Shown in pieces: positions 15,997 to 23,082 of a DNA stretch of 25,568 bases (positions are counted from its first letter, which is position 1; the number at the start of each line of letters is the position of its first letter). The notes beneath the pieces were generated by a model, which was not told the DNA's origin, did no database searches, and worked only from the letters and a program-made list of their open reading frames with translations. Origin of the DNA: a virus. The DNA lies in the IMG/VR virus record IMGVR_UViG_3300028596_000057, positions 1-25,568 of that record. One strand, 5' to 3'. The translations under genes were made by a program, and so were the position numbers.

Positions 15997-16006
15997 CGGG
16001 TTCTCC

Positions 16007-16155: not shown

Positions 16156-16710
16156 TCACGAACGCTGTTGCTTGCGGCGGTAATAGGCCCGGTAGGCAGC
16201 GTTGTTGCAGATGCGGCACACCCTGTGCGTAGGTGTCCGCTGGTACGTGTTCTCAGGCGTGAACTCGTGGCCGTTGTCGCAGTGGGTCTTCTGGGCGTTC
16301 TTGGCACTGAAGCTGACACCCCGCAGGGTGTTGGTGCGCTGCGCCACGGCTTCCAGATGGGCCGGGTTAACGCAGTTCCGCACTCGACATAGGTGATCTA
16401 TGTGGAGCCCGGCCGGAATGGGGCCGACAAAGGCTTCGTAGGCGAGCCTATGAGCGGCGCGCGTCTTCCCGTCTGCGTCCACCATGCCGCCGTACCCGCT
16501 CGGGGTGCAGTAGCCCTGGAAGAGCCAGCAGCCCGACGGGGCCTTTTTGACCTTGTCGAGGAGTCGATCCTTCACGGACCGGGCCGGACTGTGGCCGATG
16601 CGGCAGATTTCCCCCGCCTCAAGGGCGGCCTTGTAGCAGCGCTTGCACCGGTTCTGGGCGTGGACCGGGCTCTTGCCGCAGAAGGAGCAGGCGGGCTTCG
16701 GCTTCTTCAC
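16156..16710 (-). CDS. HNH homing-type endonuclease with zinc fingers
   Basis: 184 residues from GTG 16710 with AGGAG upstream. N-terminal zinc-binding part CSFCGKSPVHAQNRCKRCYKAALEAGEICRIGH; central HNH core with RAAHRLAYEAFVGPIPAGLHIDHLCRVRNCVNPAHLEAVAQRTN (catalytic H-I-D-H, then C..N...H), of the family in which the H-N-H residues and two Cys coordinate metal; C-terminal second zinc part with THCDNGHEFTPENTYQRTPTHRVCRICNN. Such enzymes nick or cut DNA, either as homing elements or as partners of terminase in DNA packaging. It is a free-standing gene between two small genes and not inside any other gene. Confidence 0.92.
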   Translation of the reverse strand: MKKPKPACSFCGKSPVHAQNRCKRCYKAALEAGEICRIGHSPARSVKDRLLDKVKKAPSGCWLFQGYCTPSGYGGMVDADGKTRAAHRLAYEAFVGPIPAGLHIDHLCRVRNCVNPAHLEAVAQRTNTLRGVSFSAKNAQKTHCDNGHEFTPENTYQRTPTHRVCRICNNAAYRAYYRRKQQRS

Positions 16711-16729: not shown

Positions 16730-17068
16730 TCACGCAGCCAGCGCGAGCCGCGCGGCCACGATCTTGTAGGCGGGCTTCCTCGGCTTGTAGCTGAGGGCGA
16801 TGACCGCGACCTGCTGGGGCGTGTACCGCAGGCAGTCCCGCATCCGACGCCCGGCATGGCTGCGGCCGGCGGTGCCGACGATGGCGAGCTTGGCGGCGAC
16901 CTTGCGGAGGGTGCCGACCATGCTGGCCGCGTCGCAGTGGCTGAGCCCCTGCGCCATGGCGTGACTCGCGAGGGTGCCGGTTCCGCGTCGGGCGATGCGG
17001 GCGGCGGCGCGGGTGGCGATGCTGCGGGCCTTGACGGTGGCACGGCGGCTGCGGTTCGAGGCGATCAT
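16730..17068 (-). CDS. Unknown basic protein, 112 residues
   Basis: ATG 17068 preceded by AAGGGGGAC. The first third is Arg/Ala-rich (RSRRATVKARSIATRAAARIARRG); the rest is helical (AQGLSHCDAASMVGTLRKVAAKLAIVGTAGRSHAGRRMRDCLRYTPQQVAVIALSYKPRKPAYKIVAARLALAA). No catalytic motif or membrane span. The 'RYTP.Q.A.IA..YKPRKP.YK' end looks like a recurring Streptomyces mobile-element protein of unknown role. It is the first minus-strand gene after the control region 17111-17230 and probably leads the HNH-containing operon. Confidence 0.65.
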   Translation of the reverse strand: MIASNRSRRATVKARSIATRAAARIARRGTGTLASHAMAQGLSHCDAASMVGTLRKVAAKLAIVGTAGRSHAGRRMRDCLRYTPQQVAVIALSYKPRKPAYKIVAARLALAA

Positions 17069-17110: not shown

Positions 17111-17230
17111 TTCCTTACGAACCTTACAGTTCAGACCCAGAGGTTCGCAAGGTTCTCGCAGACCTTACAGACAAGGATCTTCGTAAGGTTGCCGCCTCGC
17201 GTTCCTTACAGACCTGACGCGCCTTACACT
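17111..17230. promoter_or_regulatory. Repeat-rich divergent control region (CCTTAC operators)
   Basis: CCTTAC occurs at 17113-17118, 17122-17127, 17163-17168, 17204-17209 and 17222-17227 and, inverted (GTAAGG), at 17183-17188, with near-copies GCAAGG (17147-17152) and ACAAGG (17171-17176). The copies at 17122, 17163 and 17204 are each 41 bp apart and continue as CAG. The pair 17183/17204 forms an inverted repeat. This is the only region of its kind in the window and lies between the divergent genes 17068 and 17237, so repeated binding by a regulator is the simplest reading. Confidence 0.72.
17121..17150 (-). promoter_or_regulatory. Candidate minus-strand promoter for the HNH operon
   Basis: On the minus strand TTGCGA (17150-17145), an 18-nt spacer and TAAGGT (17126-17121), a TAnnnT-type -10. 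The -10 lies inside the CCTTAC repeat at 17122. Transcription would start near 17114 and lead into the gene starting at 17068. Confidence 0.45.
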
Positions 17231-17237
17231 CCTCACA
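17202..17237 (+). promoter_or_regulatory. Candidate leaderless promoter of the Phd-like gene
   Basis: TACACT (17225-17230) is a good -10 (TAnnnT), 6 nt before the ATG at 17237, so transcription would begin at or next to the start codon; no ribosome site is present upstream. The -35 position (about 17202-17207, TTCCTT) is weak and lies in the CCTTAC repeat at 17204, consistent with regulation there. Confidence 0.5.
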
Positions 17238-17461
17238 TGAAGAAGCCGCAGAGCGTCCCCGTCGAGCAAGCACGTAAGGAGTTCGCCGACCTCCTGGACG
17301 GCAGCCAGCACAAAGGCGAGTTCGCCGAAATCACGCGCCGCGGCAAGTCAGCCGGCGTACTTGTTCCGCCCGACTGGTACGAGTCGGCGGTCGCCGCCCT
17401 CGGCGAGGTCAGGGAGCTGCGTCGCGAAAACGCCGAGCTGAAGCAGGCCGCCGCCAACTAG
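17237..17461 (+). CDS. Phd/YefM-like antitoxin-type DNA-binding protein
   Basis: 74 residues from ATG 17237. The frame is open far upstream, but the product only looks like a protein from here: MKKPQSVPVEQARKEFADLLDGSQHKGEFAEITRRGKSAGVLVPPDWYESA, the Phd/YefM pattern (strand, helix with AR..F..LL, ITRRGK.AGVLV strands, then helix), ending in a coiled coil (LGEVRELRRENAELKQAAAN). Such proteins are antitoxins that dimerise on their own promoter. No Doc, RelE/ParE or VapC-like toxin follows: the next gene is an unrelated 60-residue protein. It may thus be a lone regulator that binds the CCTTAC repeats upstream. Confidence 0.78.
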   Translation: MKKPQSVPVEQARKEFADLLDGSQHKGEFAEITRRGKSAGVLVPPDWYESAVAALGEVRELRRENAELKQAAAN

Positions 17462-17515: not shown

Positions 17516-17698
17516 ATGGCGATCCGGGTGGGTGTGCAGGCTGACAGCGAGGACGAGTGCGCGGAGGGTTTGGCGCAGCTGGTCGACGCCGGGTTCGTGC
17601 CTGTGATGCTGCCCCGGCTGCTGACCGACAACCGGTGGATGGCCCGCGCCGTACCCGCCCGCACAACGAAGGCCCCGGCCGCGGAACCCACTGCATGA
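17516..17698 (+). CDS. Unknown small protein, 60 residues
   Basis: ATG 17516, 54 nt after the Phd-like gene; there is no clear ribosome site. CACACT lies 6 nt before the ATG, the same spacing as at 17237. Product MAIRVGVQADSEDECAEGLAQLVDAGFVPVMLP followed by LLTDNRWMARAVPAR: a strand-helix-strand fold with EDECAEGLAQLV as helix, similar to small Streptomyces element proteins of unknown role. It ends just before a strong hairpin. It is in the place of a toxin but does not look like one. Confidence 0.6.
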   Translation: MAIRVGVQADSEDECAEGLAQLVDAGFVPVMLPRLLTDNRWMARAVPARTTKAPAAEPTA

Positions 17699-17701
17699 CG
17701 A

Positions 17702-17734
17702 AGGGCCCGCCCCCGATATCCGGGAGCGGGCCCT
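17702..17734. terminator. Bidirectional terminator between convergent genes
   Basis: AGGGCCCGC (17702-17710) and GCGGGCCCT (17726-17734) form a perfect 9-bp stem; the loop (CCCCGATATCCGGGA) can pair further. It lies 4 nt after the plus-strand stop at 17698 and 13 nt from the minus-strand stop at 17747. The arm is the same 9-mer as in the terminator at 14712. Confidence 0.85.
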
Positions 17735-17746
17735 CGCTGCAATCCA

Positions 17747-18106
17747 TCAGCCGATACTGCCGTCGATCGTTCCGTTGTCGTAGTAGTCGAGCAGGTCCCG
17801 ATCCTTCTTGCGCATGCCGTCGATCACGCTGGCGATGACGAGTGCGTCATAGTCGTCCTTCTTTACGTCGTTGCAGGCGGACGGCTTGCCCTTCCCGCCC
17901 GCCTTCGACTGGGCGGCGAGCGCCTTCTGGCAGCCCTTCACGATGTCGTCGTAGGACGGCCGGCTGATCCAGTAGACGGTCCCGCCGATAGCGAGGGCGA
18001 TCGCTACGACGGCGACAATGATCAGCGGGAGGCGTCTCTTCGCCGCGGGCTTCGGTGCGTGCGCGGGCATGGGCGGGGTGTCGGGCAGCGGCGGCAGGTT
18101 CGTCAT
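17747..18106 (-). CDS. Single-pass membrane protein, 119 residues
   Basis: ATG 18106 with GGGGGGA upstream; the longer frame upstream is not protein-like. A Pro-rich cytoplasmic head (MTNLPPLPDTPPMPAHAPKPAAKRR) is followed by one membrane span (LPLIIVAVVAIALAIGGTVYW) and an outside domain with two Cys (IVKGCQKALAAQSKAGGKGKPSACNDVKKDDYDALVIASVIDGM) that could form a disulfide. The head-TM-domain layout is frequent among Streptomyces proteins. Function unknown; it lies at the junction of accessory and transfer-like zones. Confidence 0.7.
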   Translation of the reverse strand: MTNLPPLPDTPPMPAHAPKPAAKRRLPLIIVAVVAIALAIGGTVYWISRPSYDDIVKGCQKALAAQSKAGGKGKPSACNDVKKDDYDALVIASVIDGMRKKDRDLLDYYDNGTIDGSIG

Positions 18107-19564: not shown

Positions 19565-21709
19565 CTATCGGACGCAGTCGTTGGCGGTGATCAGGTCGTC
19601 CAGCCGCCAACCGCGGGGCCTTTGGGTGCCGCGTTGCATCGTGGCGATGGGCACATCAACGCCCATGGCGTCGAGGCGGGTTTTGATCTCGGTTCCGGCG
19701 CGGGTCGCATACGCGCCGTCCGTCTCGTCGGCGCCCTGAACGAAGTCGTCGTCCACGGTGGCGAGGTAGGCGAAGGCTTCGGCCCGGGTGACGTTGCCCT
19801 GCCCTGTCCCGGCCGCCGCCTTGATCAGGTGGTCGAGGATCGTCACCTCCGGCGCGACTGCGACCGGCAGGACTCCGGCCGCGGCGCGCAGCTCGTAGGC
19901 CCGCCGCAGGATCGCCTCGACCTCGTCGTCGGTGTAGAAGTACGACTGCGTGAGCGTGGGCTCCGAGGTCTCGCCGGTCTGCAGGTAGCCCACGCCGCGC
20001 TGCGACTTGAGGATCCGCTGCGCGTTGTAGCCGGCGGACGCCCGGCCCTTGCCGAGGATGGTGTCGGACGCTTCGGGGGTCATGCAGCGGCCTGCCCAGC
20101 GGGTGGACAGGATGTCGCGGATGCCGGTGGGTACGGCGTTGGAGTCGGGCTTCTGCGTTGCCGCGATCACGATCACGCAGTAGGCCCGGCCCTGCTGCGT
20201 GATGAGCCTCAGGAGGCGGTCGAGTTCCTTCTGCTGCTCCTGGGTGGCGGCGGCCATATAGGAGGCCCACTCGTCGATGTAGACGACCGTCCAGCGGACC
20301 CGATCGTCCTGTGCGGCAAGGGTCTCGGAGAACTTGCGGACCGAGTGATCCTTGACGACCTGCTTCAGGTCGGGCAGGACCACCTCCCACAGGTGCGTCA
20401 GAATCGCGAGCAACTTCGCGGGGTCACCATCGGTGTCGATCATCTGGGCGATGCCCTCGAACGGCGACAGGTCGAAGCCACCCTTGCCGTCCGCCAGATA
20501 CAGGTCCGCGATCACGTCCAGAGCTGCAGCGAGCAGCGGGTTATTCGCCGCCGCCGACTTGCCGGAGCCGGGTTCGCCGCCGAACAGGGCGGTCTTCTCG
20601 AACCACTCCACAGTCGTGACGTCACCACGCTCGGACACGGCCATCGGCACAGGTGCCCACAGGTTGACCTTGTCCGCGGTGACCAGGGGCCCCTTGTGGG
20701 GCTTGCCGGTGAACGGCACCTTGAGGGTGACACGCAGGGTGATCCAGTCCTCCCGCGCCCCCTTGGTCTGCGAGATCTGCTGCACGCTGACGCCGAAGCC
20801 GTTCGCGAGCTGCGGTGTCGCACCGAGGGCCTTCGAGGCGGGTATCCCGTCCGGCAGTTCGAGCCGGACTTCCCAGGCGGAGCCGTCTGCCGTCAGAGTG
20901 CACGGCGACAGGAGCTTGACCACGTCCTCCGCTCCGATGATCTTGGCGCTGCGGTAGACGCGGTTGACCATCTCGTCGGTCATCCGGTCGCCGTCGCCGA
21001 TCTTCGCGTCGCGGTCGGTGTACAGCTCGCCCGCGGCGGTACGGCGGCCGAGCAGCGCGAACCCGAGGAGCGTCGACCCGGTGGCGAGGAGCCCGCCGGG
21101 TCCGCCGAGCAGGGACAGGCCGGCTCCTTCGGCGGCGGCGATCGGGCTCAGCGCGACGGCGCCGCGGACAAGGCGCCGGAGGCGCGCGTCACGCTGGGCC
21201 GCCTTGTACCTGCTCATCGCCGACACGGACTCGGCGAAGGACTTCTCCATGTCCTTGCGGCGCCGGTCCTTCTCCTTGCCGGGGACCAGGCGCCGGTCGT
21301 GAGCCCACTTGGCGGTCTTGTAGTCGCGCTGCGTCTGCTGCACCTCATGCCGGGCGGCGGTGATCTGCGTTCCCTCGGTGCCCTGGATCCACAGGAAGGT
21401 GCGGCGCATGCCGCGGAAGGCCTGGGCGCCGTGCCCGTGCTCGGTCTTCTGGCGGCGCACCCACTTGCGGAACCGGCGGGTGGAGTTGACGCGGCCGACC
21501 GCGGTGCGACCCTTCCAGCCGCCGGTGGTGCGCGCCCATCCTGGTACGAGGGGGGTGTCGCCCATCGGGTCGGCGGGCAGCGTCTGCTTCGCGGCGGCCG
21601 GGCCGGCGGACTGCAGAGCGGGCTCGGGCGCGGGGGCGTTGAGGTAGCCGGCGACGAGCTGCTCCCACTCCGGGTCGGGGCTGCTGCTGGGGATCCTTTC
21701 GATGCTCAC
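19565..21709 (-). CDS. traB-like: TraB-like FtsK/SpoIIIE DNA translocase
   Basis: 714 residues from GTG 21709 (AAGGAC upstream, over the end of the previous gene). In Streptomyces plasmids TraB alone moves double-stranded plasmid DNA between hyphae. Visible parts: a basic N-terminus (1-165), hydrophobic membrane part (about 176-222, LVRGAVALSPIAAAEGAGLSLL...LLATGSTLLGFALLG), a beta/alpha region, Walker A GGEPGSGKS (377-385), Walker B WTVVYIDEW (473-481), an RAYCVIVIAATQKPDSN sensor-like strand (Q residues), a GRCMTPEASDTILGKG segment, and a C-terminal winged-helix-like domain (NVTRAEAFAYLATVDDDFVQGADETDGAYATRAGTEIKTRLDAMGVDVPIATMQRG...RGWRLDDL) expected to read the repeats of the transfer site. 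The alternative, a phage chromosome-partition FtsK, is less likely given the Spd-like neighbours. Confidence 0.85.
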   Translation of the reverse strand: MSIERIPSSSPDPEWEQLVAGYLNAPAPEPALQSAGPAAAKQTLPADPMGDTPLVPGWARTTGGWKGRTAVGRVNSTRRFRKWVRRQKTEHGHGAQAFRGMRRTFLWIQGTEGTQITAARHEVQQTQRDYKTAKWAHDRRLVPGKEKDRRRKDMEKSFAESVSAMSRYKAAQRDARLRRLVRGAVALSPIAAAEGAGLSLLGGPGGLLATGSTLLGFALLGRRTAAGELYTDRDAKIGDGDRMTDEMVNRVYRSAKIIGAEDVVKLLSPCTLTADGSAWEVRLELPDGIPASKALGATPQLANGFGVSVQQISQTKGAREDWITLRVTLKVPFTGKPHKGPLVTADKVNLWAPVPMAVSERGDVTTVEWFEKTALFGGEPGSGKSAAANNPLLAAALDVIADLYLADGKGGFDLSPFEGIAQMIDTDGDPAKLLAILTHLWEVVLPDLKQVVKDHSVRKFSETLAAQDDRVRWTVVYIDEWASYMAAATQEQQKELDRLLRLITQQGRAYCVIVIAATQKPDSNAVPTGIRDILSTRWAGRCMTPEASDTILGKGRASAGYNAQRILKSQRGVGYLQTGETSEPTLTQSYFYTDDEVEAILRRAYELRAAAGVLPVAVAPEVTILDHLIKAAAGTGQGNVTRAEAFAYLATVDDDFVQGADETDGAYATRAGTEIKTRLDAMGVDVPIATMQRGTQRPRGWRLDDLITANDCVR

Positions 21710-21717
21710 GGCGGCTC

Positions 21718-23016
21718 TCAGTCCTTCTTCTCGGTGGTCCGCTCGACGGCGGCCTGCTTGCGTGCGACGGGATGGTTCGGGGCGGCGTCGCCGGCTCGAC
21801 GGACGGGCGGGGTGCCGCCGTTGTTGCGGCGTCCGTCGGGGGCGTTCGGGTCACGCTTTTCGCGGGCGGGTCGTTGGGAATCGACCAGCGAAAACTCACC
21901 GATTATCGGAGTGCTGGTGACGTTCTGCATGCGGGCCTGCGCGGCGCGCGACTCGGCTTCGATTTCGGCGGTCACGCCGACCAACTTCGAGCCCGTCTTG
22001 CGGTACCAGGCCTCGGCCCAGATCTGCTCCGTGACGTACTGCGAGCCGCGAGCGGAACGCATCGCCTCAGCGGTCTTCCAGATCTCCGGGTGACCCTCGC
22101 GACGGTCATCGTCGCGGCGCCGCTGCTCCTCCTCGACGCGCTCCTGCGCAGCCTTCTTCTCGGCCGCCGCCGCCGTCTCGGCCGCTTCCCTCTCCAGGCG
22201 CGCCTGCTCAACAACGGCGGCCTCCGCCTCCGCGACCTTCTCAGCGCTGCGCCGCTCCCGCCACGACGGGATCCCGTCCGCCTTCTGGGCGATGCCGTGC
22301 TCGTAAGCCATCAGGACGATCGGCCCGCCAAGGGAGGCGATCGCACCGATCAGGCCGGCGTTGAAGCCGATCCGCGGATCGGACAGACCCCCGTACATGT
22401 TGATGCCGGCGGCGATCACGGCGCCGAGCATGATGCCGACCCGGTACGGGGCGACGTCCCGGCGGTGGGCGACCGCCCACGCGGCGCCGAACGCCAACAC
22501 GAGGGCGAGGCCTTCGAGGAGCGCAGGCGCCGCGATCAGGAACGGGCGGGCCCGGTCCCAGAAGTGCATGAACTGCACCGGCGCCGCGATGACCAGGCCG
22601 ACGGCGTAGATGCCGCGGGCGCCCCACCTCCACCACAGCTCGGTTCGCTGCTGCTCGGCGTCCCTCTTCGCTTCGGCCGCCTCCTTCTCGGCGGCGGCCT
22701 TGTTCGCCTTCTCCTTCTCGGTGTTGGACTTGGCGGTCTCGGCGTTCTTCTTGGCGAGGTACGCCTGGTGGTCGGCCTGCTCCTTCTCCAGCCGCATGGC
22801 GGCGCGCTCGTTGGCGATCCGCTCCTTCTCGGCCTTCTCGACGGCGAGGATCTTCTCGGCCTCAGCCTTGCCCGCCGCTTCGGTGCGCAGAGCGTCGGCT
22901 TCGGCGGCGGCTCGGGTACGGATCGCCTCCGCCTCGGCCAGCGCGCGCGGGTCGAATCGCGGCTCGGGCGAGGTCTTCGGCGTGCCGTTGACCTTCTCGA
23001 CGGATGTGGCGGTCAC
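21718..23016 (-). CDS. Spread/transfer membrane protein with coiled coils (DUF2637/SpdB-like)
   Basis: About 432 residues from GTG 23016 (AAAGGA 11 nt before); the longer frame to a TTG at 23076 has no ribosome site. A charged coiled coil of about 120 residues (AEAEAIRTRAAAEADALRTEAAGKAEAEKI...KEAAEAKRDAEQQRTELWWRWG) is followed by four membrane spans (GIYAVGLVIAAPVQFMHFW; FLIAAPALLEGLALVLAFGAAWA; VGIMLGAVIAAGINMYGGL; GLIGAIASLGGPIVLMAYE), then a second coil (AEKVAEAEAAVVEQARLEREAAETAAAAEKKAAQERVEEE) and a soluble end. The four-span core is like the DUF2637/SpdB group seen with TraB. It stops 8 nt before the translocase start, so the two are probably cotranscribed. Confidence 0.78.
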   Translation of the reverse strand: MTATSVEKVNGTPKTSPEPRFDPRALAEAEAIRTRAAAEADALRTEAAGKAEAEKILAVEKAEKERIANERAAMRLEKEQADHQAYLAKKNAETAKSNTEKEKANKAAAEKEAAEAKRDAEQQRTELWWRWGARGIYAVGLVIAAPVQFMHFWDRARPFLIAAPALLEGLALVLAFGAAWAVAHRRDVAPYRVGIMLGAVIAAGINMYGGLSDPRIGFNAGLIGAIASLGGPIVLMAYEHGIAQKADGIPSWRERRSAEKVAEAEAAVVEQARLEREAAETAAAAEKKAAQERVEEEQRRRDDDRREGHPEIWKTAEAMRSARGSQYVTEQIWAEAWYRKTGSKLVGVTAEIEAESRAAQARMQNVTSTPIIGEFSLVDSQRPAREKRDPNAPDGRRNNGGTPPVRRAGDAAPNHPVARKQAAVERTTEKKD

Positions 23017-23082
23017 GGTGATCGGTGTCCTTTCGAGGCTCGGTGGGGGTACGGGACGGCTTGTGGCGGGGGGCAAGCCGGA

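Follow-up and report, generated by a model that had tools for sequence, protein, structure and literature searches.

Known systems and their comparison with the present locus

The closest described systems are the toxin-antitoxin pairs Phd-Doc of phage P1 and YefM-YoeB, in which an N-terminal Phd/YefM domain binds DNA and an autoregulatory operator overlaps the promoter. For YefM, the arginines R10 and R31 are reported to be essential for DNA binding, and the known operators are TGTACA-type palindromes 12 bp apart (PMC4803016). P1 Phd is helped by Doc toward tight binding (PMC4803016), while PfiA, the antitoxin of the PfiT/PfiA pair of the Pf4 prophage, requires its toxin for tight binding and represses only together with PfiT (PMC7264888). 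PfiT/PfiA influences its phage and resembles our case in two respects, a Phd-family antitoxin carried by a phage and a palindrome on the -35 region (PMC7264888). The locus analysed here shares with Phd-Doc and YefM-YoeB the DNA-binding domain, a probable operator overlapping the promoter and the arginines matching R10 and R31 of YefM. It differs from them in that a toxin is absent, the C-terminal tail is unconserved and the promoter is predicted to be leaderless; unlike the YefM palindromes, the half-site is CCTTACAG, paired in inverted orientation at a distance of 16 or 21 bp.

In temperate-phage heteroimmunity, the specificities of repressor and operator vary between relatives. In heteroimmunity regions such as those of Cluster A mycobacteriophages (PMC6550527), this variation is found at one genomic site, as it is here. 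However, the operators here lie in one intergenic region, the regulators have unrelated folds, and a separate HTH locus is linked to the integrase.

Source of the DNA and neighbouring genes

The window, i.e. the whole stretch of DNA analysed, has 25,568 nucleotides and is the virus record IMGVR_UViG_3300028596_000057, which is itself only a 25.6-kb fragment. The phage host is probably Streptomyces, as suggested by the nearest phages of the portal protein (33-37% identity). The Phd protein was confirmed in none of 84,980 genomes scanned by alignment and single sequence, so phage similarity is the sole basis of the host call. Among annotated phages, tblastn with the Phd protein gives no relative, and DNA similarity gives three 36-bp matches, all in mycobacteriophage coding DNA and uninformative.

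On the minus strand, the array described below is followed by a 112-aa gene (16730-17068; phrog_10890, 1e-25), which belongs to a highly conserved family present in 20 related contigs and is likely a co-regulated target. The model of its protein is mostly helical (pLDDT 86), with no PDB match in the fold search. An HNH endonuclease gene (16156-16710) adjoins it; this gene is missing in the close relative L007, a recent gain or loss. On the plus strand, the 74-aa Phd/YefM-type gene (phd, 17237-17461) is followed by a 60-aa gene (17516-17698), which closes the plus-strand unit in most relatives and whose family has a W-x-A-R-A motif. A strong GC hairpin without a T tract (17703-17733; -36.4 kcal/mol, z -4.7, computed on 17690-17760) is a terminator candidate and separates this convergent plus-strand unit from a minus-strand 119-aa gene. 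Farther downstream, 19565-21709 encodes an FtsK/SpoIIIE-like protein (phrog_1358) and 21718-23076 a 452-aa protein without Pfam match; this transfer-like pair occurs in a phage that also has genes for the portal and further structural proteins.

The CCTTAC array and its conservation

The array consists of six CCTTAC hexamers and one near-copy between 17113 and 17227, 5' of phd, with CCTTAC on the plus strand at 17113, 17122, 17163, 17204 and 17222 and on the minus strand at 17183. Overall, the window contains 12 CCTTAC matches, while 2.2 ± 1.3 are expected and 12 is reached in 0 of 100 shuffles; half of the 12 fall within the 115 bases of the array. We denote the copies O1 to O7 and give their distances from the ATG. 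O1 (17113-17118, plus strand, -124) is invariant in six relatives, and O2 (17122-17127, plus strand, -115) covers the -10 element TAAGGT of the divergent promoter. The near-copy O3 (17147-17152, -90) reads CCTTGC on the minus strand (GCAAGG on the plus strand) and is invariant in 7/7 sequences; it overlaps the -35 element TTGCGA of the divergent promoter and lies 16 bp before O4, arranged like the lone dyad of distant relatives. Both O4 (17163-17168, plus strand, -74) and the inverted O5 (17183-17188, minus strand, -54) are conserved in relatives. O6 (17204-17209, plus strand, -33) overlies the -35 region of phd's promoter and is the sole copy kept at one position in all ten phd loci. The weak copy O7 (17222-17227, plus strand, -15) overlaps the -10 box; its first base varies among relatives (CCTTAC, tCTTAC, gCTTAC), probably because the site is in truth the -10 box TACACT (17225-17230). 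A possible extra copy within phd (17274-17279, minus strand; GTAAGG on the plus strand) is found in 6/6 close relatives and may be mere codons.

The consensus from 36 sites is roughly (A/T)CCTT(A/G)C(AG/GA)A. In the window this 10-bp consensus is confined to the array, and the single CCTTAC occurrences elsewhere are without it; of these, the copies at 16005 and 16137 resemble ribosome-binding sites, reading GTAAGG at 8-9 nt 5' of an ATG. The inverted pair -90/-74 has the 16 bp of the dyad, and a second one, -54/-33, is 21 bp apart.

The positions, the conservation and the link between array and gene given here are computed. Nine relatives of the Phd protein are found in IMG/VR, and all nine have the array or a dyad before phd, so the absence of the repeats beside the same gene, which the preliminary description had named as a refuting observation, is not what is seen. 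Six of these proteins are 73-100% identical, and at their loci the hexamers stand at -124, -115, -74, -54 (inverted) and -33 and the near-copy at -90, with identical distances; the search of related elements for conserved CCTTAC spacing thus has a positive outcome, and the exact 41-bp spacing noted before holds for 17122, 17163 and 17204 and is kept in the six relatives. Invariance over seven sequences is seen at 41 of 42 positions within the hexamers and at 57 of 89 in the rest of the region (Fisher p 9e-6), and the sequence conservation ends at about -130. The array between the divergent genes, first noticed from the sequence alone, is therefore real, in excess over shuffles and under selection. 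As to the number of copies, the five plus-strand hexamers and the inverted one stand, while of the two near-copies proposed only one is clear.

The remaining homologues, L008-L010, are distant (44-53% identical) and have one perfect dyad, CTGTAAGGT-N8-ACCTTAC, the rest of the array being absent. With the likely true start codons used, CCTTAC at -33 is present in 10/10 phd loci, which are few and amount to about eight distinct lineages (L002/L003 and L007/window are near-identical pairs). The array stays constant while the neighbouring divergent gene varies among relatives, showing that the array goes with phd. In 2.9 million IMG/VR viral contigs, the exact 17-base core occurs only 5' of phd and in two coding sequences of unrelated phages. 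A scan of the collection with the 16-bp dyad core gives nine matches without phd, about the chance level by our own estimate. CCTTAC repeats were not found upstream of the genes of two plasmid Phd proteins (37-43% identical), and thus the operator code appears limited to this Phd subfamily.

The Phd-type protein

The 74-aa protein matches Pfam PF02604 (6e-9; 35.9 bits, above the curated cut-off of 29.8) and phrog_375 (7e-7), annotated as 'Phd-like antitoxin', and its profile matches P1 Phd in PDB. AlphaFold gives a poor model (pLDDT 72), for which two YefM antitoxins rank first in the fold search without reaching significance (E 1.6). Nearly all invariant residues of the family are located in V9-Y48, including A12-R13 and I32-T33-R34, and the alignment has no invariant column past W47-Y48. 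By this alignment, the invariant R13 and R34 would correspond to the basic-patch arginines R10 and R31 of YefM. The family members have 57-83 aa, with a C-terminal tail that is variable or missing.

At the ten phd loci no adjoining toxin gene is recognisable, in agreement with the earlier view of a lone Phd-like regulator. The genes 3' of phd are the 60-aa gene, DUF6221 genes, an HD-domain gene, or nothing. Since the tail is variable or missing and no toxin is recognised downstream, we take the protein to be a predicted repressor rather than a working antitoxin. The HD-domain gene resembles (p)ppGpp hydrolases and is observed at 6249-6770 of L006 and in the regulator slot of L030 described below, in the plus-strand unit behind the regulator.

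Promoters and the proposed mechanism

The promoters were assigned by conservation, and a generic sigma-70 scan detects neither of them; their geometry is computed. For phd, the predicted -10 box TACACT (17225-17230, plus strand) corresponds to a TAnnnT at -12 to -7 in 10/10 loci. With the box at this distance, transcription would start at or beside the ATG at 17237, giving a leaderless messenger. Leaderless messengers are common in Streptomyces. The predicted divergent promoter TTGCGA-18-TAAGGT (17121-17150, minus strand; TTGCGA at 17150-17145, TAAGGT at 17126-17121) reads toward the 112-aa gene and is as the preliminary description had drawn it; its hexamers are invariant in 7/7 sequences. 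The further statement that the repeats lie over both divergent promoters is borne out too, with O2 and O3 on the minus-strand promoter and O6 and O7 on that of phd. A feature of autoregulation is thereby present, i.e. conserved repeats overlapping phd's own promoter (CCTTAC at -33 and TAnnnT, 10/10). The conservation of O3 as CCTTGC would fit a double duty as the -35 element TTGCGA.

Based on these results, the repeats are very probably the docking site of the Phd-type repressor encoded beside them. Our main reading, to which we give a probability of roughly 0.74, is that the array serves as operator region to a self-contained repressor module, whose Phd protein would bind it, repress its own and the divergent promoter, and move together with its operators. 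The binding itself, the sign of the regulation and the geometry of the dimer are what we infer from the sequence, as is the benefit to the phage. The 74-aa protein would represent the DNA-binding part of an antitoxin without the conserved toxin-binding tail and would recognise half-sites (A/T)CCTTAC(AG/GA)A. The basic unit would be the inverted pair GTAAGG-N10-CCTTAC, with hexamers 16 bp apart, and the group of the window would have six or seven half-sites. Phd bound at -33 would block the -35 region of its own leaderless promoter, resulting in autorepression, and Phd at O2 and O3 would cover the -10 and -35 elements of the divergent promoter reading into the 112-aa gene. The module and its operators would travel together, alternating with other small regulators that bear their own, different repeats. 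Several features count against this model: the CCTTAC half-site is not a palindrome, unlike the known YefM operators, and no toxin is visible, unlike in Phd/Doc of P1 and PfiA/PfiT. The poor AlphaFold model, the promoters missed by the generic scan, the small number of loci, the weak HTH matches of many slot regulators and the slots without repeat excess also weigh against it.

An exchangeable regulator slot beside the 112-aa gene

The gene order near the 112-aa gene is largely common to its 20 contigs, and we followed the gene divergent from it (the slot; loci L012-L030 and L041). In 19 related loci without phd, another small regulator-type protein is encoded on the divergent strand, as the first gene in most of them. 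Representatives of the slot regulators were scanned with Pfam and PHROGs, and for most of these the match, usually a weak one, is to HTH families or to a repressor of Arc-like type; by BLAST the slot regulators form about ten groups. Their upstream regions have repeats of different sequence, namely GTCTAN5TAGAC in L013/L017/L019, AGTTGGCA in L020/L024/L030, TGTGGCTACACA in L022, TGTTGCAC in L029 and CTTGGCCA in L026. Overall, repeats are in excess (p<=0.05) in 13 of 19 slot upstream regions, compared with 16 of 100 control windows, with kinship within groups lowering the number of independent cases; the excess is not seen in the other 6 of 19. Over whole contigs, the exact GTCTAN5TAGAC is found in the slot only (three in L017, two in L019), and the three copies of AGTTGGCAG in the L030 contig are all within the slot. 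An A-N3-T box is present at -11/-7 in 12 of 19 slot loci and one base farther upstream in 7 of 19. Judged by these sequence features, slot regulators other than phd usually appear to have their own repeat family and a predicted leaderless promoter.

The histories of the two divergent genes are incongruent. L012 and L014 have a 112-aa protein 90-92% identical to that of the window, yet they are without phd, whereas in L006 phd is 74% identical and the 112-aa protein only 55%. The near-identity between the DNA of the window and that of L012 extends through GGGTCCCCCTTGGT, the ribosome-binding leader of the 112-aa gene, and is lost directly beyond. By these computed comparisons, regulator and operators are replaced together, with the seam in the leader, and the pair looks like one exchangeable module at the slot.

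A Phd-dyad-HNH insert among tail genes

In L008-L010, phd is surrounded by tail genes and has its strand to itself; an HNH endonuclease gene (PF01844) lies divergent to it, with the dyad between the two. Among 80 relatives found by the tail-tube protein, the gap between the tail-terminator and tail-tube genes is 73-92 bp in 78. The two exceptions, L097 (885 bp; same contig as L010) and L156 (947 bp; same contig as L009), both carry phd, in an insert of about 0.8 kb made up of HNH gene, dyad and divergent phd (2108-2920 in L097, 2060-2900 in L156). Short copies of the tail-terminator gene's 3' end (CACCCG..TCCTGA) border the L097 insert. Such an arrangement resembles a mobile endonuclease cassette that brings along its own regulator.

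Small element-encoded regulators of a DNA-cutting gene are also represented by the C proteins of restriction-modification systems. CvkR of CAST elements is comparable to the Phd-HNH pair of L008-L010 as a small element-encoded regulator of a DNA-cutting or mobility gene (PMC9938897). The protein families differ from those of CvkR and the C proteins, and regulation of HNH by Phd is putative.

Alternative explanations

The preliminary description had suggested that an antitoxin-type protein may be the master switch of the element. Phd would then act as master repressor of lysogeny, with the array as the phage's main immunity operator, and it is true that the slot specificities differ among relatives, as in temperate-phage immunity regions, and that the array covers divergent promoters. 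We consider this unlikely in view of the relative L004, whose contig (G001) has 75.5 kb. At 8.4-9.7 kb this contig bears an integrase-like gene, which matches Phage_int_SAM_3 with E 0.001, short of the curated cut-off. Beside it, at 7.2-8.0 kb, lie a gene of HTH_31 type (above cut-off) and one with a weaker HTH match, some 38 kb from the array; a GntR regulator is found at 57.7 kb. The apparent lack of a classical repressor, on which the suggestion had leaned, is thus an effect of the 25.6-kb fragment. Moreover, CCTTACAG has three copies in this contig, all within the array and none at lytic promoters elsewhere, so the regulation would be local, and in L008-L010 the same module is a dispensable insert among tail genes. 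There is little probability, too, that Phd is a true autoregulated antitoxin against a toxin whose gene lies elsewhere, such as in the host or a rival phage, with the array as ordinary toxin-antitoxin autoregulation. Such a role would agree with the family PF02604 and with the autoregulation of type II antitoxins via the N-terminal domain (PMC4803016), but an adjacent toxin is recognised in 0 of 10 loci, the next gene in L008-L010 is a convergent tail gene, and the toxin-binding tail is unconserved and missing in the 57-58-aa members.

Our deduction that Phd itself binds CCTTAC leaves some room for another regulator of phage or host that binds the repeats, phd being merely the best-conserved target. 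This is quite improbable, however, since the motif tracks phd in two phage groups that are unrelated, relatives without phd do not have it, and the alternative slot regulators bring different motifs. A role of the repeats as a cis site for transfer or segregation, such as a TraB/FtsK clt-like locus or a centromere with Phd as bystander or adaptor, is very improbable, and we rejected it. The direct repeats with regular 41-bp spacing and the FtsK/SpoIIIE-like gene 2.1 kb downstream are in its favour, and a transfer switch had been considered before, but the array is present within the flanks of 0 of 12 loci fetched with the FtsK-like protein, the distant homologues keep one dyad only, placed on the phd promoter, and no parA-like gene is recognised nearby. 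Apart from these rivals, a broader idea is tentative and on balance doubtful: the site between the 112-aa and 60-aa genes might be a second immunity-like specificity locus of this actinophage family. Fold-unrelated repressors (HTH kinds, Arc-like, Phd) would be swapped there as cassettes, along with their matched operator arrays, under selection for new specificity, and a resident prophage would silence the 112-aa unit of a newcomer only where the cassettes of the two match; an HNH endonuclease would also have taken up the Phd version, giving a homing cassette that is mobile and represses itself.

Significance

Autoregulated repressors, Phd-type operators and the exchange of repressor specificity are already known. 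To our knowledge, three points are apparently unreported in the literature searched: a toxin-less Phd with a CCTTAC code, a slot open to regulators with different folds, each with its matched array, and the insert of Phd, dyad and HNH gene. If the module of Phd and operators is as we propose, an antitoxin fold would serve, free of a toxin, as a simple repressor with an operator code of its own. Since one genomic position would host about ten repressor-operator pairs that differ in fold, co-evolution and exchange of their specificity would be directly testable, and the slot pairs could yield small orthogonal regulators for Streptomyces. The Phd-dyad-HNH insert, in turn, suggests that free-standing endonuclease cassettes may bring their own off-switch.
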